Source: a virus | Direction: 5' to 3' (one strand) | Length of the DNA stretch: 64,000 bases | IMG/VR virus record: IMGVR_UViG_3300020731_000015 | Location: 1 to 64,000 of that record | Part shown: piece by piece, positions 1-57,256 of the stretch | Layout of the letters: each line of letters opens with the position of its first letter | Position numbering within the stretch: position 1 is the stretch's first letter | The notes under the pieces: generated by a model | Databases searched by the model: none | The model's input: the letters and a program-made list of their open reading frames with translations, nothing else | What the model was told of the DNA's origin: nothing | Position numbers and translations under genes: made by a program

Positions 1-3000
1 TTCCACGGCAATCAATACACCCTCGGTATGGGCGGAACAACACCAGACGGTCGTTCATATGAGAAGTTGGAAGCAAGGGCTAAGGAAATCGCTAAGGAAC
101 TCGGCTACGGCGATTATCCAAAGTTTGCTGAAAACCTCGTACGAGTCGCTGCCAATTCCAAAACCCTAGCGGATTACGCAGGAGTGACTGAATCTGGTCG
201 AGGACACCTCAAACTAGCCAATCTGGTCTTTGACCGTATTGGGAACAACGAACCACCAAAGGTTCTATCCCAGAGTGAGTTCGACAAATACCGAAGCAAA
301 CTCCCACCACTCTTTACCGGAATCTCTACGCACCGTTCACCAGCCGAAGACAAGATTGCCGACTTCGCCTATGGCAAGGGAGTCAAAATCGGGGCGGGTG
401 CTTTTGGTCGCGCTTGGTATTCGACCACCAACGCCGAGAACGCCCAATACTACGCTTCATCAGCCCACAATGGAGAAGTTGATGGGGGCGTTATGAAACT
501 CAAACTCCAAGCAGATTCCAAAGTCCTTGATTACAACAAGGCCGTAAAAGCCCTCAACAACGCAGAGAGTAAAAGCGCCGACATCCTCAAGAACATAGAT
601 GCCGTTGCTGAAATGCTTTCGGCGGGCAAGCCACAACTCAAGGACATAGCCGAGACAGCAGCACAAACGATTGTGGCTGGCGATGAAAACATACGTCTAG
701 CGATGATGGGCGTAGATGCCCTAACAGCCAAAGTAGAAGAGAACGGCAACTCCTATGTGATGATTCTCAACCGAGGCAAGTTAGTTATGAGCGACACCTA
801 CGACAAGGTATCGCCAAGCGGCCTAGAGTCAAAACCAATACCTGCCGAGCCAAGTGATGTAATCAAGGGCGATAAGCCCGGTCACGAGTTTCACGGGAAT
901 CAATGGGTAATTCACGGAACCGATGGGGCGATTCTTCAGCACCAACGAACCTTTAAGGAACTATGGGAAGCACGAGGGCAGTTCCAATGGAAAATCTATA
1001 GCCAAATCCGCGATAGGGCTAACGAATCAAGAGAAAGCAACCAGATGTCTTTTGAGGGAAATATAAAGATGCTGGTAGCGCACGACCTCACACAGAAACT
1101 AGGCACGAAGTTTGATGACCGCCTCGTTGATAGTGCAGAGGTTGACCAAGTAGGAACATTCAAGGAGTTTTTAGCAACTCTTGGCAAAAACGATTTTGTC
1201 AAAGTATCTAGCCCCGGAGAGTTTGGCGGCAAGACCTCATATGACGGATACATCACCCAAATAAAAACCGACTCATTTAGCAATAAAACGCCGGCACAGC
1301 AATACAAGGATTATGTAAAGGGTCTAAAGAACGGAACGAGCAGTCCGCTAGAGCCTATCTTCAGAGCAACCGACCCCGCCCTTACCGATGCCGTTAGACA
1401 AATGAGCGTATCTAGAATCCTCAACGAGTGGGCGCAAACATCAAACGATGGCAACCCAACCTCGCTCGCTATTCAGCAAGCCGTAGCCGACCAATTCGGG
1501 CTCGAGAACACGGCAAGTTGGAAAATGTTGCCAGAACTAAAGAAAGCCGTTTCTAGCGAATATGAGAAGAACGGTGACTTGTATCGTGCGCTCGCAAAAG
1601 CCCAATACAAGAACACCCAAGACACGCTCAAAAAAGAGGGAATCAAAGATGTCCAAGTCTTTCGTGGCTACAAGTTCGCTAAGGGCGAAGAACCAAAGTG
1701 GGCTAAGAAATACGGCCTAGCGAATGTCAGCACACGGCCACTTTCGTCATTCGCTTCAGACTTCGCACAAGCCGAGAAGTTCGCTTTCCAAGCACAAACG
1801 ATTTTTGTGCCGGGTGCGAAAGAAGAGTTCCAAAAAGAAGACCTTTCCAATATTCACGGTGCTGTTATCACGGGCATAGTTCCAGCCAACAAGGTATTCT
1901 CACTCCCCTCGACAGGATTCGGTTGCTACAAGGAAAACGAAGTCACATTGTTGGGCGATACCCAACAATGGCAAGTAATCACCTCACCCGACCAATGGAT
2001 GGAAGTCGCACCACGACCCAAAGACGAAGACTTCGAAAATATTACCGAGAACTCAATTATCAAGGGCGAATCGGCAGGACACCCGTTTCGAGGTAATCAA
2101 TGGGAAACAGGAGAGGGCGATTCACCAATCTCGTTTATCCAAAGGAACATCAAAGAGTTCTACGATGCGGGCGGAAAGATAACAGTTGTATCGGGCGATA
2201 GAACTTCCGCTATCCAAAAAGTCAATGACGAAATCACCAAACTAAAGAAAAAAGAATACGAGAGTATGCCGAAACGCCAACAGTTAGGTATAGACCTAAT
2301 GGGTGCGGCAGTTAAAGATGTAAAGGGGAAAATCTATGACGAAGACCCAGACATCAAGGAGTGTTATCTACTTGTTGCTAGAGACAAGGATAAGAACCTA
2401 GCGGCAGTAGTGAGCGTCAGCGTAAAGGAAACGGAAAAATACGGAAACTATGTTGATGTCGGCTATTTGGGCTCAACAGGGAAAGTGCCGGGCGCAGCAA
2501 CGGCTATAGAAGAGCAAATTGCACAAATCGCAAACGATAGAGGATTGCCAGTTCAATCCAAATACATACCTGACTCAAAGCCGTATCACCAACTATTAGG
2601 TCGGTCACTAGAACCCGACAACAAGTGGTCGAAGTGGAACGAAGAACAGGCCCGCCAAATTGCGGCCCTAGAAAATCCAAAGGCACGAGTTCTAAAGGGC
2701 GAATCAGAGGGGCATCAATTTCACGGAAACCAACGGACCACAGGCGAAGCCGGTCACGCCAACACCTCGGTTATGGAAGAGGGCGTAATAGGCGACCTAA
2801 CCAAACTCTTTGGCAAACCAGATGGTCGTATACTCGGCTCTATGACACAGATAGATAACGAAGACTGGCTCAAATACAACTCGTGGGATTTATACCGAGT
2901 AGGCAAACTCATAACCACCTTGCCAGACCTACTCTGGTCACTAGGGGTATCAAACGGCACAACCACCCAGCAACTCGACGCCGTAGAGAACTTTACTCAC

Positions 3001-3066
3001 CTACCAGTTTGGAACGCCGCGCCACAAACACTCAAAGACGAAGTATCTAACTTCCTAAAGGACTAG
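1..3066 (+). CDS. Multi-domain tag protein (ART/ART/GNAT), 5' partial
   Basis: The frame is open from base 1, where it reads FHGNQYTLG, the tail of a GHxFxGNQ tag cut by the window edge, so the ATG at 28 is not the true start. Three more tags follow at 865-906, 2062-2103 and 2695-2736, dividing the protein into four modules. Module 1 (about residues 95-285) has G-x-G-x-F-G-R-A-W-Y and looks like an ADP-ribosyltransferase (ART). Module 2 is a clearer ART: VFRGYKF near 553, STRPLSSFAS near 577 and an ExE-type KENEV near 645, i.e. an R-S-E layout. Module 3 looks like a GNAT acetyltransferase (GYLGSTGKVPGAATA near 820). Module 4 is not recognised. Followed 7 bp later by another tag gene. The enzymatic folds are inferred from motifs; modification of host proteins after infection is a hypothesis. 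Confidence 0.85.
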   Translation, partial: FHGNQYTLGMGGTTPDGRSYEKLEARAKEIAKELGYGDYPKFAENLVRVAANSKTLADYAGVTESGRGHLKLANLVFDRIGNNEPPKVLSQSEFDKYRSKLPPLFTGISTHRSPAEDKIADFAYGKGVKIGAGAFGRAWYSTTNAENAQYYASSAHNGEVDGGVMKLKLQADSKVLDYNKAVKALNNAESKSADILKNIDAVAEMLSAGKPQLKDIAETAAQTIVAGDENIRLAMMGVDALTAKVEENGNSYVMILNRGKLVMSDTYDKVSPSGLESKPIPAEPSDVIKGDKPGHEFHGNQWVIHGTDGAILQHQRTFKELWEARGQFQWKIYSQIRDRANESRESNQMSFEGNIKMLVAHDLTQKLGTKFDDRLVDSAEVDQVGTFKEFLATLGKNDFVKVSSPGEFGGKTSYDGYITQIKTDSFSNKTPAQQYKDYVKGLKNGTSSPLEPIFRATDPALTDAVRQMSVSRILNEWAQTSNDGNPTSLAIQQAVADQFGLENTASWKMLPELKKAVSSEYEKNGDLYRALAKAQYKNTQDTLKKEGIKDVQVFRGYKFAKGEEPKWAKKYGLANVSTRPLSSFASDFAQAEKFAFQAQTIFVPGAKEEFQKEDLSNIHGAVITGIVPANKVFSLPSTGFGCYKENEVTLLGDTQQWQVITSPDQWMEVAPRPKDEDFENITENSIIKGESAGHPFRGNQWETGEGDSPISFIQRNIKEFYDAGGKITVVSGDRTSAIQKVNDEITKLKKKEYESMPKRQQLGIDLMGAAVKDVKGKIYDEDPDIKECYLLVARDKDKNLAAVVSVSVKETEKYGNYVDVGYLGSTGKVPGAATAIEEQIAQIANDRGLPVQSKYIPDSKPYHQLLGRSLEPDNKWSKWNEEQARQIAALENPKARVLKGESEGHQFHGNQRTTGEAGHANTSVMEEGVIGDLTKLFGKPDGRILGSMTQIDNEDWLKYNSWDLYRVGKLITTLPDLLWSLGVSNGTTTQQLDAVENFTHLPVWNAAPQTLKDEVSNFLKD

Positions 3067-3073
3067 CCCAACT

Positions 3074-3574
3074 ATGGAAACCATAGAGCAAGCAATAGCC
3101 CTATGGCTACGAGTAATCAAAGGCGATACTCAAGGACACGAGTTTCGGGGCAACCAATACACAGAGGGGGGAGAACACACTTCCCAACCAGCCCAATACC
3201 TCGTATCGGCAATTAGCCGAGTTCTAGATAGATACAAGAAGAACGAAATCGGGGAAGAGGGCATAAAGCAATTCCTCGACAATCCCCAAACCCCCAAAGC
3301 AACGGCTATCGGCGTTCATAGGGGAATCATCTCGGCCCATAACCAAATCGCCAATCAAGTCATATTCGACGCCCCTCACAAAATCGCCGCTCAACGCCAC
3401 CAAGAAGCACTACTAGGGGCTCAACAAGTCATAAGGGCAATAGACACTAATCAACCAAAGGCCGCAATACAAAAATCCCTAGAGAACTATCTCTCCCTAG
3501 CCACCAAAGCAAACAAATCTTCCTATGAGGCAGATACCCTCTCACCCATAGAGGAAGACCTAACTAAACGCTAG
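3074..3574 (+). CDS. Small GHEFRGNQ tag protein
   Basis: 166 aa. It starts with a short amphipathic helix (TIEQAIALWLRVIKGD) that runs into the tag KGDTQGHEFRGNQYT at about residues 16-30. The rest is helical and Ala/Gln-rich with no recognised enzyme motif. It begins 7 bp after the large tag protein, so it is probably co-transcribed. The helix-plus-tag layout matches the genes at 39.3-43 kb and 51.7 kb. Function unknown. Confidence 0.85.
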   Translation: METIEQAIALWLRVIKGDTQGHEFRGNQYTEGGEHTSQPAQYLVSAISRVLDRYKKNEIGEEGIKQFLDNPQTPKATAIGVHRGIISAHNQIANQVIFDAPHKIAAQRHQEALLGAQQVIRAIDTNQPKAAIQKSLENYLSLATKANKSSYEADTLSPIEEDLTKR

Positions 3575-3587
3575 TATCCTTATACCT

Positions 3588-4610: not shown

Positions 4611-4707
4611 ACAGGGGGCATCCCACCCCACAATGGTTGACAAAGAATCCCTAACTACTAAACCCCCATACGCTACAAATTGTGGAGTGTTAAGACTGCA
4701 CTTTGGG

Positions 4708-35016: not shown

Positions 35017-35076
35017 ACAGAGATTTGGAAAGAGTGGGGTAAAGTAATGAACGAACTAACCACAAGGGAGTCGGCC

Positions 35077-36951: not shown

Positions 36952-37027
36952 TCCCCCTATCTACGACTAGGGTTTTCCAAAGTAGGGGATAGTATCTACC
37001 CAGAAACTTCCCCACTTGGAGGCCGCC

Positions 37028-43098: not shown

Positions 43099-45396
43099 AT
43101 GTCATCTATCCAAGATGTCCGAAAGTTCCTTGTTAGAGAACGGTTTGTGGTCCTCAAGGGCGACTATGTTGGCCACCCCTTTCGTGGAAACCAATACTCC
43201 GACTTAGGCTCTGCTGAACACCTACAAGAAGCGAATAGAGCCGCTAGAGAAACGGATTCGCTCAAAAGAGAGGGCCGTCGTAGGTATGGTCGTTCTCACG
43301 GATATTCCCTTGATGGCGACCTAGCAAAAGCATCGCTCGATGCCCTTGACCACGCGGCATCAGCAAAAGCCAAAGTAGGCGTTCTTAAAACAACAATATC
43401 TGAACTAGAAGAAAAGATTAAGAGAAACGGTGGCGACCCCAAAACTCCGATAGACGGATTCCACGACTCCGTTGAGGTGCGACAACTCAAAGACAACTTA
43501 CAGCGTTCCCAAGAACAGTTAAGCCATATAACTAGCGGGAATATGAAGTTTCGTATTTCTTGGAACAAATCACTAACTAGCGAGCAAATGAGCAAGCAGG
43601 CCGCATCCGCGCTGAATCGTGGATACAAGGAAGTTCTCAACAAATTATCTTCGATGCCCGGCGTGACTATGCCGAAAGCCAAGTCGCTTCTTGACAACAA
43701 GAACAACCCTCGCCCAGAGGCTCTAAAGGTTCTTCAGAACGATGTCAAGCAGATAGACTCAATCGCCAAGAAAGATGCCAAAACAGCGCAAGACGAAAGT
43801 GCGAGCCCAGAAGATAGGTATAACGCAACTGTCGGCTTGCGAAACTCATCGAAGAACGCCCTCTCTGCCCACACCTTTCTTGAGCAAGTCTATCGGATTA
43901 GTGGAGACACTACTAACCAAGATGCTGAAGCAAAAATCGTTGAGAAAGCAAAAGCGTCTATTGGGAAAGCGGACGAACATTACACAAATAATTTCGCTCA
44001 AATAACACTTTCATACGCCAAAGAGAGCATCGATAAGGCTAGTAAGACGATTGACCTAAGTGGAGTCAACCTATTCAGCATCAGCCCGGAACAGAAACAA
44101 ACGATTTCCGATGCAAAAAGTCTTTACTCGAACGCCTACAGAATACTTAGTGATGCCAGACTAGGCAATACTGATGAGGCTAGGTTGGCAAGAGACAATT
44201 CTCAACAAGCAAACGCACTCCTAAATACCGCTAGGTCTAACGAACTAAAAGCAACCCTAGACGGGTCAATGAAGAACATAGGTAAGGCAACTGCTGATAA
44301 GAGCGCCTATGAGAACACCCAAAAGGCCGAGCGCGATTATCGCACTTTCCAATCGGCGGTTGGCGAGGCTAAGTCGAATTGGAACGGCCTATTATCTAAC
44401 TACGGTGGTGCTTCATCACCAGAGTTAAATGCAAAAGCACAGAGCAACGCTATCGGATTAGCGAACCAACTAGAACTCGTACAAAAGACCGCTGGTTTGG
44501 CTATCGGTAAGGAATACCTAAAAACGGCTAGTGACTCCCTAAAGTTCGTTCGTGAAAACCTCGGAAACACAGACCCAGCCGTGGCGGAAAAGGCCGACAA
44601 ACTTATTACCGAAGCATCAAGTGCAGCCAATACAGCAAGAGGGCTATTCTCAAAAGAATCTCGCTACTATTCATCAAGCGCACCAGCGACAAGTGGTTTG
44701 GAAAACGAGTGGAATCAGGCATCTAGGTTTGAGAAAGAATGCACCGCCTACTCCAATGCTGTTCGTGGAACATCTCTTTTGGAAAAAGGTCTAGCGGAAA
44801 CAAGGAGTATGCCCGAAAAGGTGGATATGAGTGACATCGGCCAAGATGACCCCAATAGTTATGTATCCCTAAAGGCTAAAGCCGCGGGAACTTTGGATGA
44901 CTCGTTCGGCTACCTAACGCGCGGAGTTGAAGCAATCGACAAATCAGACCTTTTCAGCAAAGACGAAAAACAAGAACTTATTGGCAAACTTAAGGACCAA
45001 GCCACCCAAGCGGGTAAGGAACTTGCCGATATCAACTTTAAGTTCTATAGAGATGGTCTTGACTCTATGGTTGTCAACGGTAGTAAGGAATTGGAAAAAT
45101 CCAAAGACACCGATGACGATAACCCTATGTATGCCTCTACTAAGGCAGAAAAACTATTGGTGCAGGCTACCTATCTTGCTGATTCTATAGAAAACAGTAT
45201 CGCTCACAAGGAACTTAGTGGTTCGCTACTAGTTGGTCACTTCCAAGACAAGACCCCGCTACAACTCAATTCCGAGCAAGTAAAGCAACTCAAGGAAACC
45301 CTCGCCAAGCATAGTGTTGCTGAAATCCAGCAAAAAGCCGATGAAGCGAAGCAGGGCCAGCGCGCTTTCTATCGCCTACGCCAATACGCCCTGTAA
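43099..45396 (+). CDS. Large coiled-coil tag protein
   Basis: 765 aa. Short N-terminus VRKFLVRERFVVLKGD, then tag GHPFRGNQYSD near residue 30. The rest is almost all alpha-helical and rich in Ala, Lys, Ser and Glu, with no hydrophobic membrane segment. It lacks the AQITS linker of its neighbours. Could be an internal head or tape-measure-like protein; the tag favours the former group. Confidence 0.8.
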   Translation: MSSIQDVRKFLVRERFVVLKGDYVGHPFRGNQYSDLGSAEHLQEANRAARETDSLKREGRRRYGRSHGYSLDGDLAKASLDALDHAASAKAKVGVLKTTISELEEKIKRNGGDPKTPIDGFHDSVEVRQLKDNLQRSQEQLSHITSGNMKFRISWNKSLTSEQMSKQAASALNRGYKEVLNKLSSMPGVTMPKAKSLLDNKNNPRPEALKVLQNDVKQIDSIAKKDAKTAQDESASPEDRYNATVGLRNSSKNALSAHTFLEQVYRISGDTTNQDAEAKIVEKAKASIGKADEHYTNNFAQITLSYAKESIDKASKTIDLSGVNLFSISPEQKQTISDAKSLYSNAYRILSDARLGNTDEARLARDNSQQANALLNTARSNELKATLDGSMKNIGKATADKSAYENTQKAERDYRTFQSAVGEAKSNWNGLLSNYGGASSPELNAKAQSNAIGLANQLELVQKTAGLAIGKEYLKTASDSLKFVRENLGNTDPAVAEKADKLITEASSAANTARGLFSKESRYYSSSAPATSGLENEWNQASRFEKECTAYSNAVRGTSLLEKGLAETRSMPEKVDMSDIGQDDPNSYVSLKAKAAGTLDDSFGYLTRGVEAIDKSDLFSKDEKQELIGKLKDQATQAGKELADINFKFYRDGLDSMVVNGSKELEKSKDTDDDNPMYASTKAEKLLVQATYLADSIENSIAHKELSGSLLVGHFQDKTPLQLNSEQVKQLKETLAKHSVAEIQQKADEAKQGQRAFYRLRQYAL

Positions 45397-45444
45397 TTTA
45401 TCAACTGTGGTCTATTATCTATAACGAACGCAAGGGAGTTGCCT

Positions 45445-46866
45445 ATGTCTGATGAAATCCTCAACGCCGCATCCGAATGGATTGGCTCTGTGAACAAGGG
45501 TCTTTACGGCGCACTCTTTAACGAGTCGCTCACCTTTGGTCAGGACAATGCCGCTAAGGCCGAGTCACTCTACGCAGTTGCCCTCACTGCTGAAATGGCT
45601 GGCGACAAGGCTAAGGCGACTAACGCCCTTATGACTGCTTCGCAACTCCACCTCACTTCTGCCGACTACTACTTACGCGCCTCTTCTTACGGAACGATTG
45701 AGCGCACCCAACTACTCGCCCTCTCACAAGAACAAAATGCACTCGCACAAAAGGCGATTGAGGCCGTTCATCTTCTTGAGAACACTCCTGCTGAATCAAC
45801 TACCGATGCTGGTCTTGATGGCGTGACCGTTGATGAGGCCGACACTTACCCTATTGATACTGCGAACAACCTAGATGCCCGTGACCACGCACCCGACCTG
45901 CCAGATATGTATAAGTCAGTTGGCGGGTTTGCTGAAATCGCAGAAGACGGCGTAGAGGTTTGGAACTTCGACATCGCAAAGGGTGACACACCCGGCCACG
46001 AGTTCCGTGGAAATCAATACACCGAGGGAACTGGAAAACTATCTGGCCGTGCTGATGATGTTGCCGATAGAGCAAATGACGAGGGTGCTAGCAAGTCAAT
46101 CGCTGCGGAACACAAGAGCATCGCTGAAGGACACAAGAGTATCGCTATGGAACTCGCTGACCAAGCAGCCGAAATGCCACTAACGCAAGCGGAAAAACCA
46201 CTTGTGGCAAAAGCCGCTATTGACAACTTCAAGGCTTTTATTGCTCACGCTAACGCCGCAGACGCACACGAAGAAGCGGCAAAAGCACTTGCGAACGACC
46301 CACACTCGGAGAGTGCGCTAGATGCTGAGGAAGCAGCACAGCGCACTAGCGATGATGCCGCAACTGCGAGCGCCGAGGCTCACGGGGGAACCTCGATTGC
46401 GGCCAATGCTGAAAAGGTTGCCCCAACAAGCACTAGTGGCACGACTACCCAAATCACTAGCGAGGCTCGTAGCAACCCCTCAAGCGTTAAGTACATCAAG
46501 CCAGTCAACCTTACGGCCGCTAACACCTTGCGTGAAAGGGCCGCAAGTCTCGCTTTGGAAACAGGGCGCACCGTGCCAAACCAAGCCTTCGTGCAAGAAC
46601 ACACTCAAATCGCTAAGGAACACACGAAACTTGCAAAGGCAAATGACAAGGCTGGAAATAGCGATATTGCCGAGGCCCACCGAGATGCCGCTCACGCACA
46701 CGAGGTTGCCGCTGCTTTTACTAAGGATGCTATTGGGGTTTCACCAGACGGAACCGACCAAAAGGCTATTGATGCCGAGCAGAAGAGCCAAGAGGCCTTT
46801 ACCGCTAGTGGTGAGGCCGCTCGTCTTGAGAGAGCCAATATTTTCCCCGACACTAGTTCTTACTGA
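45445..46866 (+). CDS. Helical tag protein with internal tag
   Basis: 473 aa; the ATG lies 6 bp after AAGGGAG, and the TTG at 45439 is not preferred. An N-terminal TPR-like helical domain (about 1-115) is followed by an acidic linker, tag KGDTPGHEFRGNQYT near residue 178, and Ala/His-rich helices (AAEHKSIAEGHKSIAMELAD) with the TQITSEARSNP linker. Here the tag joins two domains rather than being N-terminal. Confidence 0.8.
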   Translation: MSDEILNAASEWIGSVNKGLYGALFNESLTFGQDNAAKAESLYAVALTAEMAGDKAKATNALMTASQLHLTSADYYLRASSYGTIERTQLLALSQEQNALAQKAIEAVHLLENTPAESTTDAGLDGVTVDEADTYPIDTANNLDARDHAPDLPDMYKSVGGFAEIAEDGVEVWNFDIAKGDTPGHEFRGNQYTEGTGKLSGRADDVADRANDEGASKSIAAEHKSIAEGHKSIAMELADQAAEMPLTQAEKPLVAKAAIDNFKAFIAHANAADAHEEAAKALANDPHSESALDAEEAAQRTSDDAATASAEAHGGTSIAANAEKVAPTSTSGTTTQITSEARSNPSSVKYIKPVNLTAANTLRERAASLALETGRTVPNQAFVQEHTQIAKEHTKLAKANDKAGNSDIAEAHRDAAHAHEVAAAFTKDAIGVSPDGTDQKAIDAEQKSQEAFTASGEAARLERANIFPDTSSY

Positions 46867-47156: not shown

Positions 47157-49148
47157 ATGAATATTGGCGACCGATTCAAGCCGGTTTACACCCCACGCAA
47201 CCAAGCATCTATTGATGCCGAGATTGCCAGCAAGCAGATTGCTAAGACTGCTCGTAGTGAGGTTGAGGCTATGTCAGCACTAGACAACGCTAACTTCCGT
47301 CTTCGTAAGGCTACAGAGTCTTTGAGCGAAGCACAGGTGGCTTACTTTGCCGCCGTTGAGAAGTCAGCAAGCAACGCTACTGAACTCCGTGCTGCCTACA
47401 ACAACGCACTTGCCGGATTCCGTGACAGCGAGAAAATCGCCGCTGTCGCTGCTGATGAGGTTCGCAAGGCTAAGGCCGCTCTCGCAGGTCTTCGCAAGAA
47501 GGCTTCTATGGAAGATGACTATGAGGATGACTCATCAGACGATGACTCATCAGAGTACGATGAGGATGAGAAGAAGAAGTCTTTTGGTGGCTCTAGCGAC
47601 CAAGAAGATGCTGCTGATGCTATGGCTGGCGATGACCCAGAGGGCGCAGTAAAGGTTCTTGACTCACTTGCCGACACCCACGAGCGCCTCGCAGGTATGG
47701 CTCGTAAGACTGGCAATATGGATGCTCACTCGGCTCACGCTGCTGAAGCCGGTCGCATTCGCTCAAAGATTGTTTCTCTTCGTGGCAAGGCCAACAACAA
47801 GGAAGTTGTAAAGTCTGCTTCAGATTTCATCACTAAGCGTGAGTTCTCTGACACCAAGCGCGCTCAACTCGCTGATTTGCTTGAAGACTGGAAAGTTTCT
47901 AAGGCTGCAATGTTGATTGTTTGCCCATCTTGTATGGGTGACGGTGGCTCGTGCTGTGAAAACGGAATGATTAGCCCCGATGACCTTTCAGACCACGTTC
48001 AGTTGGCAGACGAGATGCCAGTTGCTATGAGTGCTTTCAGCACCTCTTCGCTTCTGACCCGTGACTTCCAAAAGTCGGCCGCTTACCAAGAGTATGTCTT
48101 GGCTAAGGGTGATGTTGATGGTCACGAGTTCCACGGAAACCAGTACACCGCAGGTGGTGGCGGAAAGACTGCTCAAGTCGCTAGCAACTCGCAGACCGCA
48201 CCAAAGACCGATGCCGAGCGTTTGGGTAATGTCCCGGGCGCTAGCAAGGCACTACTCACTCAAGATGCGATAGACAAGTTCCAAAGTGGCAAGATTGACC
48301 ACAAGGCTTTGGCAAATGCTCACGATGCTCTTGCTGCTGCCCACCTTTCTGCCGCTAAAGAGGCACGGCTAGTTGGTGACAAGAAAGGTATCGCCCTCCA
48401 CATCGCCGCCGCCAACGCTCACCTTTCTGCCGCTACTGCCCACCTAACTGCAGACGGAGAGGGCTACGAGCCCTATGTTGACAAAAACGGTAATGAGGTC
48501 AAGACCGAGGGTATGTCATACGGCGAACTAGCCAACTTGCCAACCGCTTCAGACCGACTTTCAGCAAACGCCGCTGATGCTTCTAAGGCCGCAGACAAGC
48601 ACGATGTAGAGATGGAGCAGGAAACCGCTCAAATCACTAGCGAAGCCCGCACCGTTCCAATCAAGCCCGGCCAAGCCGCACAGACCCGTGACCCCAACTG
48701 GAACCCACGCACTAGTGGCGCGTTGATAAATATGCCAAAGGCGGGAACCCAAAAGGGTTTTAACACCATCGTTGGTGGCTACGAAAAGAACATTCCAGTT
48801 CAACTTGGACTCGCTAAGCAAGCAGAGGAAGAATCAAAGAAAGCCGTTGCTGATGGCGACCTTGAGACTGCCACTGCGAAGATGGAAGAGGCTGTGAAGG
48901 CTTATGAGGCCGCCGCCGGAAACGCTCGTGGAATCTTTATGATGCACGAGAAGTTCCAAGGTCAGGTCAAGCAGGCAAACCCTGAAGACCCAAAGGTAGC
49001 CGCTTTCCGTGAACAGGCTCGTTCTATTCGTGCTAACGAAAAGGCTTCGGCACAGGAAAAGGCTGCTGAACTTGGAAAGAAGTTTAAGGAACAAGAGGCC
49101 GCCAAAATCGCCGCTGCTAAGGATGCCCAGAAAATCGTAGGCGAGTAA
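47157..49148 (+). CDS. Tag protein with Cys cluster and coiled coils
   Basis: 663 aa behind GAAAGGAACTCC. N-terminal coiled coil (1-125), acidic Asp/Ser stretch near 125-140, a helical domain, a zinc-finger-like CPSCMGDGGSCCENG near 260, then tag KGDVDGHEFHGNQYT near 318, AQVASNSQTAP and AQITSEARTVP linkers and Ala-rich helices. The Cys cluster recalls DnaJ-type CxxCxGxG repeats but is only half of one. Function unknown. Confidence 0.8.
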   Translation: MNIGDRFKPVYTPRNQASIDAEIASKQIAKTARSEVEAMSALDNANFRLRKATESLSEAQVAYFAAVEKSASNATELRAAYNNALAGFRDSEKIAAVAADEVRKAKAALAGLRKKASMEDDYEDDSSDDDSSEYDEDEKKKSFGGSSDQEDAADAMAGDDPEGAVKVLDSLADTHERLAGMARKTGNMDAHSAHAAEAGRIRSKIVSLRGKANNKEVVKSASDFITKREFSDTKRAQLADLLEDWKVSKAAMLIVCPSCMGDGGSCCENGMISPDDLSDHVQLADEMPVAMSAFSTSSLLTRDFQKSAAYQEYVLAKGDVDGHEFHGNQYTAGGGGKTAQVASNSQTAPKTDAERLGNVPGASKALLTQDAIDKFQSGKIDHKALANAHDALAAAHLSAAKEARLVGDKKGIALHIAAANAHLSAATAHLTADGEGYEPYVDKNGNEVKTEGMSYGELANLPTASDRLSANAADASKAADKHDVEMEQETAQITSEARTVPIKPGQAAQTRDPNWNPRTSGALINMPKAGTQKGFNTIVGGYEKNIPVQLGLAKQAEEESKKAVADGDLETATAKMEEAVKAYEAAAGNARGIFMMHEKFQGQVKQANPEDPKVAAFREQARSIRANEKASAQEKAAELGKKFKEQEAAKIAAAKDAQKIVGE

Positions 49149-49174: not shown

Positions 49175-51460
49175 GTGAACTACAAAGATATTCTCTCTAT
49201 CCTTAAGGCTGGCGTTGCTGGTCAATCTGGTGATAAAGACGGTCACGACTTTCGTGGCAATCAATGGACTGTTATGGGCCCTTGGGGTCAACCAGTTCCA
49301 CGACCCCGTGACCCAGCGACTAACAAGCCCCTAAAGGGCGCAGCGTTGGCTGCTGAATTGGCACGACTCTATCCGAGCCCGAACACGCCTATTCCAAACG
49401 CCCCTAAAACGACTGCCAAACCAGCCCCACCAAAGGTATCTGGCTCGACCCCTAAATCACCAAAAGCCCCCAAAGCACCAAAGGCTACGCCAGCACTCGC
49501 ACCAACCCCTACACCGGTCGCTACAACCCCTACAACGCCCCCTAAGCCCGTTGATGAAGCACCAAAGGCCGAAGCCCCAAAGGTAGAGGAAGTCAAGCCA
49601 GAAGAGCCTAAAAAGGTCGAGGATAACCGAGTTATCACGGAAGAGGGTCAGAAGTCTATTCAGGAACGAATTGCCGATGCTGAAAAGTGGGAACCCAAAA
49701 CTGATTTGGAAAAGCGGGCTTCCGAAGCCGCCTCGAAAATCGCCGCCGCAATCCTCGTTCCAAAAGAACGCCGACCCCTATTCGTAAAGAATCTCACTAC
49801 GGTTCTCACCCAGCCAAAGGCTTTTAGAGATGCCGTTGCACAAGCCAAAACCGTAGAAGTCAACGACCGTGTTAGAGACAACGCAGCGATGCTGAAAATG
49901 ATTGGCTTTACGGGTCTTCCAAAGGTCGTATCGGAAGCAGAGTTTAAGGCCACACCCGGCAAGGTCGCCTACTCTGGTCTTTCGTACACTCGGAGTTCTA
50001 CCCAAACACTTCAGCAGAAGTTAGCGACGCTTTACAACGGGGAGTTCCCACGCTACGGCGGTCCTATGTTCGGTGCGGCGTTCTACACATCCGAGAGCAA
50101 AGATGTGCCGGTTTCATACGCCCAAAAGAATGGGGCTAGTGGAACAAATACCTGTATCTTTCGCAACAAGTTAGTTGACCCCAACAATGTCTATAACGCA
50201 TCTGGCAACGGCCCAATGATTAAATTGGATGTCTTATCAGCAACGGCTAGGGAAGACCACGGCAAGTATTCGGCTATGGACCACCCTGACTACAATCTCC
50301 GAGAAATTATGTCGGATGCTGGATACACCGATGACGAAATCAACCGAATTGATGGCAAGGGAAGCCAGCAAGGTATCTTTAGTGGAGACAACAACTGTAA
50401 GAGTATCGGCCCAGCCCTAGCGGGATACGATGCGCTGAAAGATACCCACCACAACTACACAATGGTTCTAAATCGTGGGGCTATGGTCCTACCTGACACC
50501 TACGCAACCAATATCCAACATCAAGGTTCGTTTGGGCCAGAGGGAGCAGCAAATGTGTCTGACAATGTTCCTGTGGATTCGGCTTACGCAATCTCCGTGC
50601 CTACGCCAAAAGCACCCGAAGATGATGAGCAAGATGTCGCTAAAGGTGAATCTGACGGACACCCTTATCGTGGCAACCAATATGGGCCGGGCAAGAGTGA
50701 TGGCACTCCTGAAAAGCCAAAGCCACTACCCGGGTCTGAAGAAGAAACGGAAGAAGTAGTAAAGAAACTCACCGAGGATATGAAGTTGCCTCCTGCTGTT
50801 ATCCGTATGGGTATCCAAGTAGCCCGACCACTTCTCGCAGAAGCCGCTAAATACGAACCGGCTATCACCAAAGCGATTTCTCAATCCGTAAAAGAGAGTG
50901 GCGGAACTCGAAAGCGCGCTCAATCTGCCGTAAAGTCACTCTCTAGTGCTACCGAAAAGGCGGTTAGGGATACCGCCGATTCTGTCCAAAAGGGCTTGAC
51001 TGCTGAAATCACATCTAACTCCCTTTCCAAAGAAGCCGGAGAAATCCACGACCTCGTTCGCTATACGGTTATCTGGCCACAAAAGGAAATAGCAAGCGGC
51101 GCGAACAAGATGATACAGAGCCTCGCCAATAAGGGCTTCGTTCCATACAAAGACGAGAACGGCACGGAGATGGTGAAAAACTACTTCCACGATAGGCCGG
51201 GAAACTCATACCGAGGCATCAATGCCAACTTCGTTGACCCCAAGAGTGGAATGGTCTTTGAGGTTCAGTTCCACACACTCCAAAGCCTTGATACTGCTGA
51301 AAAGATGCACAAAATATATGACAGTATTCGCAAACTAGATAAGACCGACCCAGTTTACGAAAAGGGGCAGGAAAAGATGCGAGCGGGCTTCGCACAGGTA
51401 AAAATCCCACCGGGAATTGACTCGGTTGGAAATGTCTGGTTCAAGAAGGCTATAATTTAG
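49175..51460 (+). CDS. Tag protein with ART-like and RelA/SpoT-like domains
   Basis: 761 aa from GTG. Tag QSGDKDGHDFRGNQWT near residue 17, then a Pro/Ala/Lys-rich linker (50-155). Residues about 240-440 form an ADP-ribosyltransferase-like domain (VAYSGLSYTRSS; FGAAFYTSESKDVPVSYAQ). A second tag KGESDGHPYRGNQYG lies near 490. The C-terminal domain has DLVRYTVIW (about 626), NSYRGINANF (about 679) and EVQFHT (696), the pattern of RelA/SpoT-type pyrophosphokinases (YRG, E-x-Q). It might make alarmones or pyrophosphorylate tRNA in the host; activity is not shown. Confidence 0.78.
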   Translation: MNYKDILSILKAGVAGQSGDKDGHDFRGNQWTVMGPWGQPVPRPRDPATNKPLKGAALAAELARLYPSPNTPIPNAPKTTAKPAPPKVSGSTPKSPKAPKAPKATPALAPTPTPVATTPTTPPKPVDEAPKAEAPKVEEVKPEEPKKVEDNRVITEEGQKSIQERIADAEKWEPKTDLEKRASEAASKIAAAILVPKERRPLFVKNLTTVLTQPKAFRDAVAQAKTVEVNDRVRDNAAMLKMIGFTGLPKVVSEAEFKATPGKVAYSGLSYTRSSTQTLQQKLATLYNGEFPRYGGPMFGAAFYTSESKDVPVSYAQKNGASGTNTCIFRNKLVDPNNVYNASGNGPMIKLDVLSATAREDHGKYSAMDHPDYNLREIMSDAGYTDDEINRIDGKGSQQGIFSGDNNCKSIGPALAGYDALKDTHHNYTMVLNRGAMVLPDTYATNIQHQGSFGPEGAANVSDNVPVDSAYAISVPTPKAPEDDEQDVAKGESDGHPYRGNQYGPGKSDGTPEKPKPLPGSEEETEEVVKKLTEDMKLPPAVIRMGIQVARPLLAEAAKYEPAITKAISQSVKESGGTRKRAQSAVKSLSSATEKAVRDTADSVQKGLTAEITSNSLSKEAGEIHDLVRYTVIWPQKEIASGANKMIQSLANKGFVPYKDENGTEMVKNYFHDRPGNSYRGINANFVDPKSGMVFEVQFHTLQSLDTAEKMHKIYDSIRKLDKTDPVYEKGQEKMRAGFAQVKIPPGIDSVGNVWFKKAII

Positions 51461-51678: not shown

Positions 51679-51716
51679 GGTAAAGTATCGGGAATCCTAG
51701 TTTGGAAAGGCCCGTT

Positions 51717-52604
51717 ATGACTTCGGACATCAATGCTGAAATCTTGGCGTGGGTCCGACTAGCAAAGGCTGGCGATACCAAAGGTCACGCTTTTCACGGC
51801 AATCAGTATCAAGAGGGCGAGAGTGGTGGCGAAGCCCCAGCCCGACAGGTAGATTCGAGTCGCTATCAGGCAAATGGTCGCTACGGAACTGCTGAAACCA
51901 CCGAATCAATCAAGCCGACAGTTGCCGAAAAGCCAAAGCCCGCCGAACTTCCAAACCACGACACCCGCATAAAGAGCGACCCAGCCGATACCTCTCCAAA
52001 AGGCATAAAGAATTGGGCTCGAGAAATCCACTTCGCGCTCACTCGTGGCGAGCAACCCATTATCTCCGCCCAGCACTTCCCCGCCTTGATTGCTGAAATG
52101 GCCCGAACGAACTCAAAGGGCAACGACATAACCAACATCCGTATTGACGGAACTCGCCTTATGGGATTAGACGGAAAGGGCTACTCTCGCAGCAAAATGC
52201 CCCAAATTGACGAGAGCGAACGCCCCCAATTCCTAAAGGATATTGAGAAGTCAGACGGAATCACCGTAAAGCCAATGTCCGTTGACCCCACGACCCTAAA
52301 GCCAATCCAAAAGGAAATCAACGGCGACAAGTCTGGGGCGATTATGAAGAAGAACCCAGATGGTATTCCCGACAATATGCGAATCTTGGTTTCCAAAGAT
52401 GGTTATGTAGTGGATGGACACCACACTTGGGCCGCTGCCGTTGCGCTGAAATTGGCAGGAAAGTCGGCTCAATTCCCGGTCTATCAACTCTCCTGTGACT
52501 GGAAGAAAGCGATGGATGTCGGCCTCGCTTGGGATAAGGAACACAATGTTCCCCTACAAGGATTTGATACCAAGCCACCGGTTTTATCAAAATCCGTGAA
52601 ATAA
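51717..52604 (+). CDS. Tag protein with ParB-like domain
   Basis: 295 aa from the ATG behind GGAAAGG. Helix DINAEILAWVRLAKA, tag GDTKGHAFHGNQYQ, a Pro/Lys linker (40-90), then a domain with LKPIQKEING and ILVSKDGYVVDGHHTWAAAV. LxPxQ...I and VDGHHxWxAA resemble ParB/sulfiredoxin-like folds, some of which bind CTP or phosphorylate or cut. A paralogous domain is in 53009-57256 (residues about 735-915). Activity unknown. Confidence 0.75.
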   Translation: MTSDINAEILAWVRLAKAGDTKGHAFHGNQYQEGESGGEAPARQVDSSRYQANGRYGTAETTESIKPTVAEKPKPAELPNHDTRIKSDPADTSPKGIKNWAREIHFALTRGEQPIISAQHFPALIAEMARTNSKGNDITNIRIDGTRLMGLDGKGYSRSKMPQIDESERPQFLKDIEKSDGITVKPMSVDPTTLKPIQKEINGDKSGAIMKKNPDGIPDNMRILVSKDGYVVDGHHTWAAAVALKLAGKSAQFPVYQLSCDWKKAMDVGLAWDKEHNVPLQGFDTKPPVLSKSVK

Positions 52605-52611
52605 TAGGATT

Positions 52612-53019
52612 ATGACGAACGCATCAGATTTCAGCAGAGGCAATTTGCTTGGCCCAGATGGGGTTTATCGTGAGTTCATCAAGGGTGATTTCTCTGGCCA
52701 CGTCTTTCGTGGCAACCAGCACTCGGTCGGTGGCGTAGGTCACTTCGACCCTTGGCGCGCAACCCTAATGACTATCTGTGCTTCGGGCCACCAGAACACC
52801 ATCGGCGTTCCCCCAACTTGGATTGAGCGTGATGCTCAAGGTAAGCCAACTGGTCAGTTCACGGCGGGAACCCAGAGCCGTATGTGCGCTACTTGTTCCA
52901 AACCTCTACCTAACCGTTGGAAGTTGATAAACGGACAGAAGTTTATTCAGCCCGACAAGCAACCCGTGACGAGCGCAAACCAATGGCTTTACGGTGGAGT
53001 AAAGAACTATGTCAAGTAG
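52612..53019 (+). CDS. Small tag protein with Cys pairs
   Basis: 135 aa. Tag KGDFSGHVFRGNQHS near residues 24-38; later ICASGHQN and MCATCSKP could bind zinc. 11-bp overlap with the next gene. TAATAG lies 4 bp before the ATG. Function unknown. Confidence 0.75.
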   Translation: MTNASDFSRGNLLGPDGVYREFIKGDFSGHVFRGNQHSVGGVGHFDPWRATLMTICASGHQNTIGVPPTWIERDAQGKPTGQFTAGTQSRMCATCSKPLPNRWKLINGQKFIQPDKQPVTSANQWLYGGVKNYVK

Positions 53020-56000
53020 TTTGGAAAAGCAAGTCTTCCAGCCGAACTTCGTAAAGTTCACCAACACGGAAATCGTTGACCGCAACCCTATTTCTGGCAC
53101 GACTTTCTTTGGAAACCAGAACAACGGCTTCCAACTCGTTAAGTTTGCTGATGGCTCTAACGGAGTTGAGAAGCGACTCAAGCATTGGGTCGGGAACAAG
53201 ACTGGTCGCCTCTATCGTGGCGAACTTCTCGGTGCGCAGGAATACCTAGCGGCTCGTGTGGGCGAAGTAATGAACGCCCCTATCCGTGACTGCCACTTCA
53301 CTAGCAAAGACGCACAGAGTATCGTTATGCCGTTTATTGATGGGCGCTCTGGTGCTGAAATGAACGATAAGGATATCCCCGACACTCCACAAGGAGTAGC
53401 CCTACGACTATTTGACTACCTAGTAGCCAACGCAGACCGACGCCCCAAGAATATTATGTTTGCTGATAACGGAAACATAGTGGGTATTGACCACGCCCTT
53501 TGTAATTTCCGGCCTCGTGAGCCTAAGCCAGAGTTGATTACTATCCTTTGGAACGGCGGAGTCACCCTAAGTAGTTTGGAAATCCTAAAGCCAAAACTGC
53601 TTGCTCTCGGTGGTTTGTTTTCCCAAATGGGTATGACAGAAAAGTTTGGAAACCTAATCGGCAACCTCGACCGATTGATTGCGGCTTTCACCAAAATCCA
53701 AAATATCGCGGTGGCTAAGGCCGCCTTTGACTCACAGACCCCACCACAAGCCGTTCAACAAGCAGCGAAACAGGCTTTGGAGTGGATAGCAGACGGCAAG
53801 GCTGGTAGGAACTTTACCTCGGTAGGTCGTAAAAGGGCTTCAGACCTCGCTCACGGACACCCAGTATCCCTAGAAACCCTAAAGCGTATGAAAGCCTACT
53901 TTGATAGGCACGGCGTTGATAAGCAGACCCCACATTGGAACGAGCCAAGCCCCGGCAAGGTGGCGTGGTATGCGTGGGGTGGAGATGCTGGCTACTCGTG
54001 GGCTAAGAAGATGGTCGCTCGTGCTGAAAAGGCCGCAGAAGCGGTCCGTAAAGATGCCGACACCGATAGGAAAAAAGCGGACGCGAAACTAAAGGAAGCA
54101 GAAGCACTAGCGGCAGAAGCCTTTGATTTTCGCCGTAGGGAACACTTTGAGTCGGCCGCCAACGCTCACGCCAATGCCTCACGCTTATTCTTTGAGGCTT
54201 CCAAACTCTACGGAAATGACGAGAATGGTGATGCCGTAAGCGCACTCGCTAGGGGAAACTCGGAGAAAGACCTAGCCGAATCCGCCCGATTTACAGACCA
54301 GATGGGCGAACAACACAGTCCTGCTGAAATCCACGATGGAACTTGGGTGGATGGGGGTGCTTGGGCTGGCGGAACCGACCCGGTGGAAAAGGGAGATGTC
54401 GTAGGACACGAGTTCCACGGGAATCAATGGACCGGAGATGAATACGACTTCAATAAGGATTCTTACGACCACAATGCTTGGGGTTCGCCACTCAAGTATG
54501 ACTCTTGGACAGGGGCAACGACCGAAGACAAGTCAGAAAAAGTTGGTGATTATGTCTTTAATTCTAGGTTGCCTAGTAGCGAATACATCGCTTATATGAA
54601 GTCGCACTTTTCATACAACAACATACCAACGCCAGACAAACTAACCACTAACTGGAAAGATGAAATGGCGAAAGCACGGAGTAAGTATGTCGTTAGTGAT
54701 GTATGGGCTACGAAAATAAACGACAAATTGCGAAAAGACAAAGCACTTAGCCCCAAGCAACAAACGGAGTTTGAGGCCGTAAAGAAATGGGCCGAGTCAG
54801 AAACGATTATCAAACCGGTATCGCTATACCGAGTGTCTATCTTGCCTGATGCTGTTTTGGACAAACTGCAGCCCGGAACTTCCTACTTGGAAAAAGGATT
54901 CCAATCCACTTCCATATCACCATCAGATATGATTAATTACGGAGTATCCCGAAGATTGGGTGGGGATACCCATACGGCTATTAGCGGCAATAGGGTTTAT
55001 TTTAGGCTCAACGCACCAAAGGGAACGAAAGCCGTTGACGCTTACTCGGAAGAAGTGGTATTGCCACCCAACACGCAAGTTTCAGTCACTAGCCGAGCAA
55101 CCGACAAGATGGGTAATACCTACATCACGGCAGATATCAATAATAGCACGGAAGTCAAAAAGGGCGACTCGCCCGGTCACGAGTTTCACGGCAATCAGTA
55201 CGAGGCAGGTATCGTTTCCAAACTAGATGCTGGCGAGAGCCCCGAAATCGCTTCTGCTGATTTGCCCGGTCTGGTTTCTGGCATCCACGACTTAGGTTCT
55301 CGTGGTCACGGATACGACATTACGAACCTAAAAGTTGATGGAGAAAAGCCTTTCCAAACTGACCACGATGCTGATTTGCTTCGTGAGCATATGCCCCAAA
55401 TACTCCCAAGCCAACGAGCAGAGTTCCTCAAGGATATTCAGAGCGAATACGGAATTGTAAGCAAGGCAGAAGAGGTCAACCCCAAAACCCTAAAGCCCTC
55501 ACAAACAGAGATTGATGGTTGGAAGACGGGTGGCGTTTATAAGGAGTTTGCTGAAAAGGGCATACCCGCCGAGCGCGCTCCACTCGTTTCTAGCGACAAC
55601 TACATTATTGACGGACACCACTATTGGTCGGCGGCAATCGCCCTAAAAGCCGCAAACCCCGACTACAAACTCCCTATTCGCCGTTTATCCTGCGACCTAG
55701 ACACGGCACTAAAGGTTGCTAACCAATGGCACGACAAGGTTGGCAACCCACGCCTATCGCTGGGCGATACCCAAGTTTCCAAATCAGGAGTAGCCGGACA
55801 ATCTGGTGATAAAGAGGGCCACGCCTTTAGAGGCAACCAATGGTGGATGATGGGGCCAGACGGAGTTCCAGTTCCACGCCCTCGAGCACCTAAAACCGAT
55901 ACGGGAGACAAGACACCAGCGGCCCCTAAAGCCCCAAGGGTATCAACCCCACGCGCTCCAAAAGCCACGCCAACTGCTGAAACGCCTAAGCCTATCTACC

Positions 56001-57256
56001 AAGAAGACCTCAAAGTTCCATACGGCAAGGGAGTTATTCCGCCGGGCTGGAAGAAAACTGGCACGACTTCGGTAGTTATCCCGTCTAGAGATTGGAGTAA
56101 GCCGCCGAAGATAGTTAATTGCACAACCTTTTCTTCAGCAAAGGGCAACACCGCTATTATCGGCACAAGAGCGCGTGGGTGGAAGATAGGCGACCGATAC
56201 ACCAATACCGTCTTGATGACGATTGACAGATTTGCTACGGGAAAGCAAGTTGAGTTTGTTCACACTCTAAGACAAGGCGCGAACACCCTTGCTTCTGTCT
56301 CTTTGGGAAATCCAAACTCCCTAATGATTGGCCGCTATGGAATTATTGGTAGAGACTTAAAGGCGGGCATAGAAAAGTATCGCCCCAACTACCAAACAGA
56401 TGATACGACACCAGAGGCAATCAAGGCTCAAGCCGATTGGGATTCCCTAAAGGATACGGCAGTCGCACAGGCAAAGGGTGAAATCAACACCCAAGAGGGT
56501 CGTGATGCTTTGGATAAGGTCGAGGCAACGCTTCAGGCTACTGATAATTCCAATTTGGCTAAGGGCTTTACGATTGACAAGTTGGGCCGAACTTGGAACA
56601 CGGGCGACCTATTTATGTCCTCCCAACGCCGTATTGAGTCAACGATTATCCACGAACTAGGCCACTCCAACTTCTTTAGTGATGGCAAAAAAATAACCGA
56701 TGTAATCCCAGAACTCCAAAAGTCTTTGGGTAGCAAAGTAGACCTTTCTAAAGAAAACGAGAGCGGCAAAAGGGGTTTCGTAAGAAACATCAAGACCCCC
56801 GCCCTCAATTTCGGTGGAAAGACAATAGTTCCTAGAGGTGAAGTTAAAGACTTTCTAGATAAACACGAGCCCGGCATCTACCCTCTCTCGTTGGATACAA
56901 CGAAAGCCCTCAAAGCGATTGGTGGAACCAAATACGGAACGAGCAGTCTCCAAGAGTTAGGTGCTGAATCGTTCGCCCAATTCCAACTAGGGATAACCCA
57001 ATCGCCCATAACCCAAGCCTTTGCTACCTCTCTCGGCTGGCAACAGGCTGGAACTACGGTAGCCAAGTCTGGTAGCGTTGCTGATATGAGTCAATCCCAA
57101 TCCCCCAATGTTTACTACTCGCCAGAGTTCGGTGGGGAAGTCGCACGGGTATTCCTAGAGGATTCCCTTGATGGCCCACGCCTTGTGGTTGGTGATTCGG
57201 TGGAAAACTACGGCCACCCAGACCAGACTGACGACTCGACTGAAGACGAGGAATAA
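53009..57256 (+). CDS. Giant tag protein: kinase-like, ART, ParB-like, zincin
   Basis: 1415 aa. Residues 10-250: PI3K/HipA-like kinase fold with NADRRPKNIMF (141-151) and VGIDHALCNF (158-167), the catalytic and metal loops. About 265-345: a DLAHGHPVSLETLKRM ... AWGGDAGYSWA module known from other phage head-region proteins. Tag 1 at 461; an ART-like domain about 475-715 (LYRVSIL, FQSTSIS, AYSEEVVLP; the residue two before the catalytic Glu is Ser, not Glu/Gln). Tag 2 at 718; ParB-like domain to about 915 (IDGHHYWSAAI). Tag 3 near 930; a Pro-rich linker, then a metalloprotease-like IIHELGHSNFF (H1215, E1216, H1219). A hairpin terminator follows, though it lacks a plus-strand T-run. Confidence 0.8.
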   Translation: MSSSLEKQVFQPNFVKFTNTEIVDRNPISGTTFFGNQNNGFQLVKFADGSNGVEKRLKHWVGNKTGRLYRGELLGAQEYLAARVGEVMNAPIRDCHFTSKDAQSIVMPFIDGRSGAEMNDKDIPDTPQGVALRLFDYLVANADRRPKNIMFADNGNIVGIDHALCNFRPREPKPELITILWNGGVTLSSLEILKPKLLALGGLFSQMGMTEKFGNLIGNLDRLIAAFTKIQNIAVAKAAFDSQTPPQAVQQAAKQALEWIADGKAGRNFTSVGRKRASDLAHGHPVSLETLKRMKAYFDRHGVDKQTPHWNEPSPGKVAWYAWGGDAGYSWAKKMVARAEKAAEAVRKDADTDRKKADAKLKEAEALAAEAFDFRRREHFESAANAHANASRLFFEASKLYGNDENGDAVSALARGNSEKDLAESARFTDQMGEQHSPAEIHDGTWVDGGAWAGGTDPVEKGDVVGHEFHGNQWTGDEYDFNKDSYDHNAWGSPLKYDSWTGATTEDKSEKVGDYVFNSRLPSSEYIAYMKSHFSYNNIPTPDKLTTNWKDEMAKARSKYVVSDVWATKINDKLRKDKALSPKQQTEFEAVKKWAESETIIKPVSLYRVSILPDAVLDKLQPGTSYLEKGFQSTSISPSDMINYGVSRRLGGDTHTAISGNRVYFRLNAPKGTKAVDAYSEEVVLPPNTQVSVTSRATDKMGNTYITADINNSTEVKKGDSPGHEFHGNQYEAGIVSKLDAGESPEIASADLPGLVSGIHDLGSRGHGYDITNLKVDGEKPFQTDHDADLLREHMPQILPSQRAEFLKDIQSEYGIVSKAEEVNPKTLKPSQTEIDGWKTGGVYKEFAEKGIPAERAPLVSSDNYIIDGHHYWSAAIALKAANPDYKLPIRRLSCDLDTALKVANQWHDKVGNPRLSLGDTQVSKSGVAGQSGDKEGHAFRGNQWWMMGPDGVPVPRPRAPKTDTGDKTPAAPKAPRVSTPRAPKATPTAETPKPIYQEDLKVPYGKGVIPPGWKKTGTTSVVIPSRDWSKPPKIVNCTTFSSAKGNTAIIGTRARGWKIGDRYTNTVLMTIDRFATGKQVEFVHTLRQGANTLASVSLGNPNSLMIGRYGIIGRDLKAGIEKYRPNYQTDDTTPEAIKAQADWDSLKDTAVAQAKGEINTQEGRDALDKVEATLQATDNSNLAKGFTIDKLGRTWNTGDLFMSSQRRIESTIIHELGHSNFFSDGKKITDVIPELQKSLGSKVDLSKENESGKRGFVRNIKTPALNFGGKTIVPRGEVKDFLDKHEPGIYPLSLDTTKALKAIGGTKYGTSSLQELGAESFAQFQLGITQSPITQAFATSLGWQQAGTTVAKSGSVADMSQSQSPNVYYSPEFGGEVARVFLEDSLDGPRLVVGDSVENYGHPDQTDDSTEDEE

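Follow-up and report, generated by a model that had tools for sequence, protein, structure and literature searches.

Tagged genes in the window

The window analysed here comprises bases 1-64000 of the 75,270-base record IMGVR_UViG_3300020731_000015, from an uncultured virus. We describe a short peptide, GHxFxGNQ, that recurs in proteins with different domains along this DNA and that we call the tag. The core pattern GHx[FY]xGNQ occurs in 19 complete copies, all on the plus strand and all in frame inside large open reading frames (ORFs); the strict pattern KG[DE]xxGHx[FY]xGNQ[YW] has 12 copies. Together with one copy cut by the contig edge, this matches the roughly 20 occurrences claimed in an earlier note on this DNA, which also placed copies at 865, 2062, 2695 and 3119 exactly. 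We count 13 tagged ORFs rather than the at least 14 tagged proteins of that note, and our ORF scan agrees with it that nearly every gene between 37 and 57 kb is tagged; most tags lie between the portal/XkdF-type protease genes and the scaffold/capsid genes. The tagged ORFs and their tags, with L071 denoting a sister contig, are as follows.

1-3066 (+), tagged ORF cut by the contig edge, 1021 amino acids (aa), 3 complete tags and 1 cut; modules in common with L071
1-18 (+), tag copy cut by the contig edge (FHGNQY), the 20th copy; the L071 homologue has a complete tag at aa 234 and homologous sequence after it
865-906 (+), tag KGDKPGHEFHGNQW; module junction relative to L071
907-2061 (+), module between two tags, missing from L071; weak similarity to DRAT-type ART (DRAT E 0.024, below cut-off)
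2062-2103 (+), tag KGESAGHPFRGNQW; in L071 joined directly to the first module
2695-2736 (+), tag KGESEGHQFHGNQR
3074-3574 (+), tagged ORF, 166 aa, leader METIEQAIALWLRVI and tag
3119-3160 (+), tag KGDTQGHEFRGNQY
37016-39343 (+), tagged helical ORF, 775 aa, two tags and degenerate C-terminal copies
37232-37273 (+), tag KGDLPGHEFHGNQY
38870-38911 (+), tag KADQMGHEFRGNQY
39330-40487 (+), tagged ORF, 385 aa, leader, DUF5872 (PF19197 E 7e-9), tag and His/Ala-rich helices
39570-39611 (+), tag KGDLPGHEFRGNQY
40492-41841 (+), tagged ORF, 449 aa, leader MARDFFAEVESWIRVA
40540-40581 (+), tag KGDVVGHEFHGNQY
41872-43092 (+), tagged ORF, 406 aa, leader MENFAAEIESWVRIA and hybrid tag
41917-41973 (+), hybrid tag KGGPGSGDTPGHEFNGNQY, a hybrid with the second tag family
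43099-45396 (+), tagged coiled-coil/helical ORF, 765 aa
43156-43197 (+), tag KGDYVGHPFRGNQY
45439-46866 (+), tagged ORF, 475 aa, helical AH-rich modules
45979-46020 (+), tag KGDTPGHEFRGNQY
47157-49148 (+), tagged ORF, 663 aa
48105-48146 (+), tag KGDVDGHEFHGNQY
49175-51460 (+), tagged ORF, 761 aa: helical leader, tag, undefined region at aa ~195-460, tag, small-alarmone-synthetase-like domain (AlphaFold and Foldseek, 8vx3; phrog_7625)
49226-49267 (+), tag SGDKDGHDFRGNQW; low confidence in the model, presumably disordered
50642-50683 (+), tag KGESDGHPYRGNQY; low confidence in the model, presumably disordered
51702-52604 (+), tagged ORF, 300 aa: helical leader, tag, disordered linker, ParB-like domain (AlphaFold and Foldseek, ParB-N/Noc; phrog_2859)
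51768-51809 (+), tag AGDTKGHAFHGNQY; low confidence in the model, presumably disordered
52612-53019 (+), tagged ORF, 135 aa
52681-52722 (+), tag KGDFSGHVFRGNQH
53009-57256 (+), polyvalent ORF, 1415 aa: kinase-like region, phrog_2859 region, tag, ART, tag, ParB-like module (by alignment A4), tag, zincin motif HELGH
54389-54430 (+), tag KGDVVGHEFHGNQW
55160-55201 (+), tag KGDSPGHEFHGNQY
55802-55843 (+), tag SGDKEGHAFRGNQW

Three smaller features accompany these genes. The C-terminus of the 775-aa protein (38900-39343) holds the degenerate tags RVGSPFQTNQW and EAGNPFRSNQW, which suggest the decay of extra copies. In the ORF at 39330-40487, PF19197 (DUF5872) lies between leader and tag, and the same stretch precedes tags in several other phages. 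Another linker, T[AT]Q[IV][TA]S[EDN][SA]xT, recurs close to the tags, at 37592, 38072, 39633, 40603, 46450, 48174 and 48630. We considered this QITS[ED][SA] repeat as a general protease site and rejected it as lineage-specific: apart from the window, it was found in one contig, L052, of the same species.

Conservation of the tag and its leader

Most of the contigs that we compared are fragments, and counts from the scans for this tag and for the second tag described below are among the matches listed. About 330 matches to the DNA pattern of the tag were listed in 50 related viral contigs, compared to 0 for the reversed control in every contig, which excludes chance. Across at least 273 distinct contexts from at least 105 loci, window included, the consensus is [VIL]xKG[DE]x[PEA]GH[PE]F[HR]GNQ[YWH]TxG, followed by a Gly-rich stretch. 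The residues G, H, F, G, N, Q and partly Y are fixed by the search pattern itself; positions outside the pattern are still conserved (G-4 in 90%, [DE]-3 in 87% and K-5 in 66%).

Tag offsets peak 14-44 residues from the N-terminus, with 98 of the 273 listed contexts in the first 45 residues. The usual unit is an N-terminal helical leader of about 15-28 residues, the tag, a Gly-rich linker and the cargo. We grouped the leaders into recurrent classes: xxEIxxWVxxAKG, F[ST]TxxLLxxxxxYPVxKG, xLxPxWxxAxEILKG and MxxRxIxxILKG. Leader and tag are common to proteins whose bodies are 8-20% identical, and one phage has five leaders that are 79% identical in front of proteins that are 13% identical. Internal tags are also preceded by leaders (loci L020, L101 and L113), and proteins with several tags therefore look like fusions of leader-tag-cargo units. 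Tags are also present at the C-terminus, in L007, L029, L065 and L068.

At the invariant residues, codons vary as much as in the rest of the same ORFs, even within one genome. With synonymous codons at background diversity, selection acts on the peptide and not on the DNA, and we rejected the idea that the tag is a site conserved, or used for recombination, at the DNA level. In the AlphaFold models of two window proteins, the tags fall in segments with pLDDT<50 (near aa 23-36 in 51702-52604; near aa 18-31 and 490-503 in 49175-51460). In both, the leader is helical, and confidence is high for those cargo folds that have the best alignment coverage. The tags are presumably in disordered segments outside the folded domains. 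These models agree with the earlier claim that the tag sits at the N-terminus or between domains and never inside one. Its companion claim, of a peptide conserved while domains change, was borne out as well: the tag does not belong to the fold of any single enzyme family.

Cargo domains

The cargo modules are truly different, and include ART, small-alarmone-synthetase-like and ParB-like domains. The ART at 54431-55174 scores 27.8 bits for PF03496 against a cut-off of 23.4, and the best solved structure for the small-alarmone-synthetase-like domain of 49175-51460 is 8vx3 (E 1.6e-9, TMt 0.76, AlphaFold and Foldseek); the ART and RelA/SpoT-like domains guessed from the sequence alone are thereby confirmed. 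The remaining guesses fared unevenly. For the ParB-like domain of 51702-52604, which can be retained, ParB-N/Noc proteins head the Foldseek list with a match probability of 0.99, but E is 0.018. The kinase-like region of 53009-57256 is a weak match (PF00454 E 4e-5, below cut-off), the zincin of the same ORF is a HELGH motif only, and profile scans of the window gave no support for a GNAT domain. Further cargo in the window consists of His/Ala-rich helical modules. The ORF at 53009-57256 carries at least two unrelated conflict-type domains in one polypeptide, the hallmark of polyvalent proteins.

Among 140 non-redundant tagged ORFs from other contigs, we found head-related domains (MuF, Mu-type and Phage_portal_3 portals, and S78_2, DUF2213 and Mu-I proteases) and effector-type domains (ARTs, Zeta toxin, PBECR nucleases, NUDIX, DRAT, Tpt1, a HipA-like kinase and others). 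The MuF domain PF04233, present in these tagged relatives, is absent from all window ORFs scanned.

A second tag and exchange of modules

A second tag, GGxGSGNFGHxGRPGxxGGS, has the same anatomy as the first and forms arrays of up to 12 per record among the matches listed. Several phages use both tags, six ORFs bear both, and there are hybrids of the two, such as KGGPGSGAQPGHPFEGNQYTGG and the window's own copy at 41917-41973. One locus, L203, has an open frame of 3054 residues in which the first tag occurs 8 times and the second twice. Homologous modules stand behind the first tag in one phage and behind the second in another, at distances of 26/29, 22/24 and 1/4 residues; likewise, in alignment A4 the ParB-like modules of the window and of L202 differ in which tag precedes them. 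By these alignments the two tags appear interchangeable. Of 56 second-tag ORFs listed, 11 contain MuF, 8 Phage_portal_3 and 2 Phage_portal; the loci were selected by tag, and such portal and MuF fusion frequencies are not population estimates.

Two modules of ORF 1-3066 are matched at 92-97% identity in the sister contig L071, which does not have the module between the first two complete tags; the junction falls inside the tag (DVIKG followed directly by ESAGHPFRGNQW). Over all tagged proteins, which are not independent, 33% of the ends of homologous stretches lie within 15 residues of a tag, compared to 17% expected. We ran this breakpoint test with the tags masked, and then unmasked, as masking might introduce bias. 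Modules are gained and lost at the tag and, in our reading, exchanged along with it between proteins and between phages. Some module boundaries have no tag (L089, L195), a point to which we return below.

Both the junction inside the tag and the enrichment of breakpoints near it are what one would expect if the tag were a passive linker, spread by recombination of modules between repeats and kept in sequence by copying rather than by function. We find this improbable. Synonymous diversity at background, even within one genome, indicates that the peptide and not the DNA is conserved, and a passive linker leaves both the conservation of the leader and the fixed distance from the N-terminus unexplained.

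Head genes around the tag cluster

The tag cluster has a portal gene and an XkdF-type protease gene directly upstream, and scaffold and capsid genes downstream, partly beyond the window:

33299-34912 (+), portal protein, Mu type (PF06074 E 8e-35; phrog_113 portal E 8e-87)
35047-36951 (+), XkdF-type head maturation protease fused to a poly-Ser region (PF14550 E 1e-7; phrog_3017)
63520-64000 (+), continuing to 64317 in the record beyond the window, first gene of the scaffold/capsid block
64317-64814 of the record, outside the window, phrog_673 scaffolding-type protein
64834-65835 of the record, outside the window, major capsid protein (phrog_1005 major head protein E 4e-96)

Within the protease ORF, about 80 poly-Ser-rich residues lie between the N-terminal part and the protease domain. 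Between the tag cluster and the capsid block are an Rpf-like transglycosylase and split methyltransferase ORFs. The transglycosylase match, which is below its cut-off, hints weakly at an actinobacterial host. The split C5 DNA methyltransferase occupies 58193-61195: one ORF has the N-terminal half (PF00145 1-167), and a C-terminal half (LTPxECExLQGFP...) closes each of the next three, an arrangement that suggests a store of alternative target-recognition halves. Elsewhere, an amidoligase-type ORF is found at 15993-17090 (-), in a minus-strand region, and the record ends (69442-75270) in an open collagen-like ORF of 1943 aa, mostly GxQG repeats and cut by the contig end, that is probably a tail fibre. 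Comparison of the portal/tag region with isolated phages gave no near match.

The order portal, protease, tag cluster is also seen in other contigs (e.g., G016, G027, G032 and G040). Among contigs with a Mu-type portal, 15 of 19 have a tag within 5 kb of the portal, compared to 8.1 expected from rotation of the tags (p 0.0006, which is optimistic, as some of the 19 contigs are related and all were selected by the tag). The earlier note had proposed to look in other phages for marked cargo genes near portal or capsid genes; tag clusters close to the portal were found. Tags are also fused to head proteins. In the portal proteins examined, including those of three Akkermansiaceae prophages, the tag follows the portal body, and tags occur on MuF and prohead-protease proteins. 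The same tag accompanies S78_2, DUF2213, Mu-I-like and other protease families; Peptidase_S78 was essentially absent from the 15 contigs scanned.

Proteases of T4 and SPN3US trim leaders off internal proteins, and the tag could likewise be a processing site: during maturation the prohead protease would cut at or near it and so separate the cargo from its leader, the adjoining portal or MuF body, or the modules next to it. The gene immediately before the cluster encodes an XkdF-type protease. Three observations keep cleavage in play: the tag stands between the portal body and a C-terminal domain in several portal families, the proteases themselves are often tagged, and the N-terminal leaders of packaged proteins are removed in SPN3US (PMC10052503) and P1 DarA (PMC12810830). 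We nevertheless consider it unlikely. Known sites need few residues (AXE in SPN3US), whereas here 8 positions are nearly fixed across protease families; there would be nothing to free behind C-terminal tags; two different tags occur within one genome and even one ORF; and in L195 a NUDIX domain is joined to the portal with no tag in between. Nor can zincin autoprocessing be general: HExxH is present in 7 of 26 multi-tag clusters, and we rejected this zincin as the processing enzyme for all tags.

An indirect connection to virions comes from a homologue. Protein CCD57662 of Dickeya phage LIMEstone1 (149 residues, 'confirmed structural protein') is a tag-free homologue of the ParB-like module. 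The virion table of this phage lists a 17.3-kDa unknown structural protein, numbered ORF102, with five peptides and 35.57% coverage (PMC3296691). This coverage equals 53/149 residues and fits the length of CCD57662, which we take to be the virion protein seen by mass spectrometry despite the number in the table. Searches of isolated phages by tblastn with short tag peptides found only Xanthomonas phage Rb1, where XPA09464.1 (PQ569993) is annotated 'internal head protein' and contains ALDGDFSGHPFRGNQH. The second-tag queries had no match among isolated phages, probably owing to the low-complexity filter. Of 30 pattern matches in GTDB genomes, 8 looked like true tags by our own reading; the tag is therefore rare in prophages of cultured hosts.

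ART, alarmone synthetase and kinase domains also act in intracellular conflict. The tagged proteins could therefore be toxins, defence proteins or agents of superinfection exclusion that work in the producing cell, where the tag would bind a host or phage factor, and this would fit the fact that no tagged protein was found in virions in the sources searched. We regard this as very unlikely, given that the tag is found fused to portals, MuF proteins and prohead proteases, that head genes lie nearby and that a homologue is present in the LIMEstone1 virion.

A possible role in loading the phage head

Gene position, the clusters near the portal, the tags on portal, MuF and protease proteins and the LIMEstone1 homologue tie the effector cargo to the head. 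From this context and from homology, it is well supported, if indirectly, that the tagged proteins are head-associated polyvalent effectors, and they are probably injected. This much of the earlier proposal stands; the sorting or docking signal that went with it is less certain, given that the tag is also on portal extensions and on proteases. Still, the tag is probably a handle for loading cargo into the phage head or for releasing it there. The narrower proposal, that the tagged genes are an array of head-effector cassettes with the tag as docking or loading motif, we hold to be evenly balanced. Docking is favoured by the tag's independence of position, the leader helix with its flexible tether, the predicted disorder, the near-invariance across protease families and the existence of two interchangeable tags.

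In such a scheme, the tagged proteins, which are of polyvalent type, would be synthesised late along with those of the head, enter the prohead and later be delivered alongside the DNA. The tag would work in head loading as a disordered short linear motif: the N-terminal helix of about 15-28 residues and KGDxxGHxFxGNQ[YW] would dock the cargo to a partner that many head assemblies share, for which the portal, the protease or scaffold and the capsid lining are candidates. The Gly-rich stretch behind the tag would be a flexible tether to the cargo domain, and modules would be swapped between proteins and phages along with the tag.

Several points weigh against a loading handle. None of the sources searched reports a tagged protein in a virion. 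The tag is found on C-terminal extensions of portals, where a packaging address is not needed. A tag of 14-20 residues is nearly identical across different portal and protease families, so that it is hard to see which one conserved partner it could have. In LIMEstone1 a homologous module is packaged although it has no tag, and the untagged module boundaries of L089 and L195 belong here as well. It is tempting to speculate that a single address code, in the two versions GHxFxGNQ and GGxGSGNFGHxGRPG, lets many unrelated tailed phages load any fused protein into the head whatever its fold, although we lean slightly against this broader version.

Relation to known systems

The domains and their packaging are known themes (PMC5512222, PMC5576092, PMC3012670). 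Phage-type polyvalent proteins combine several enzymatic or DNA-binding domains in one polypeptide, are encoded beside portal and packaging genes and are thought to be packaged and injected (PMC5512222, Iyer et al. 2017). The window resembles them in having ART, ParB-like, RelA/SpoT-like and zincin domains in tagged ORFs beside portal/protease and scaffold/capsid genes. It differs in that many modules, and single-domain proteins too, bear the same short tag, frequently together with a leader; the passages of that paper that we searched describe no common peptide. As with the capsid targeting sequence of T4 internal proteins and Alt (PMC3012670), very different head-associated cargo shares only a short element, here a conserved N-terminal one on otherwise unrelated proteins whose internal location we infer. 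In contrast to T4, there is a leader and a separate GHxFxGNQ motif, which is also internal and C-terminal, has many copies per protein and occurs with Mu-type and other portals.

MuF polymorphic toxins (PMC5576092, Jamet et al. 2017) also fuse a head-protein domain to toxin domains in the packaging module, and many second-tag ORFs carry MuF. The window's tagged ORFs do not have the defining domain, PF04233, and are therefore not members of the MuF family; what they have in common is a peptide and not the MuF fold. P1 DarA/Hdf and the SPN3US ejection proteins are internal head proteins whose N-terminal leader is removed by the prohead protease (PMC12810830, PMC10052503). The tag differs in being common to unrelated cargo, and the passages of these papers that we examined report no such sequence. 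Rb1 XPA09464.1 shares the tag but has a single copy, near baseplate genes, and its annotation states no experimental basis. The strings of either tag were not found in the literature that we searched, and an earlier description elsewhere is possible. The common N-terminal leader, the second interchangeable tag and the exchange of modules bounded by the tag go beyond what the earlier note had described.

To our knowledge, the way in which phages select effectors for the head has been worked out in detail in few cases. If the address code is real, it would identify injected effectors by sequence alone, and with a tag common to unrelated phages the presence of the motif would mark a protein as injected. 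Hundreds of effectors that lack annotation could thereby come to light in environmental phages; the tagged ORFs already comprise ARTs, Zeta-toxin-like kinases, nucleases, alarmone synthetases, NUDIX and Tpt1-like enzymes. Exchange of modules at the tag would explain the quick diversification of effector arsenals, and the tag gives a testable handle on how the prohead is loaded.

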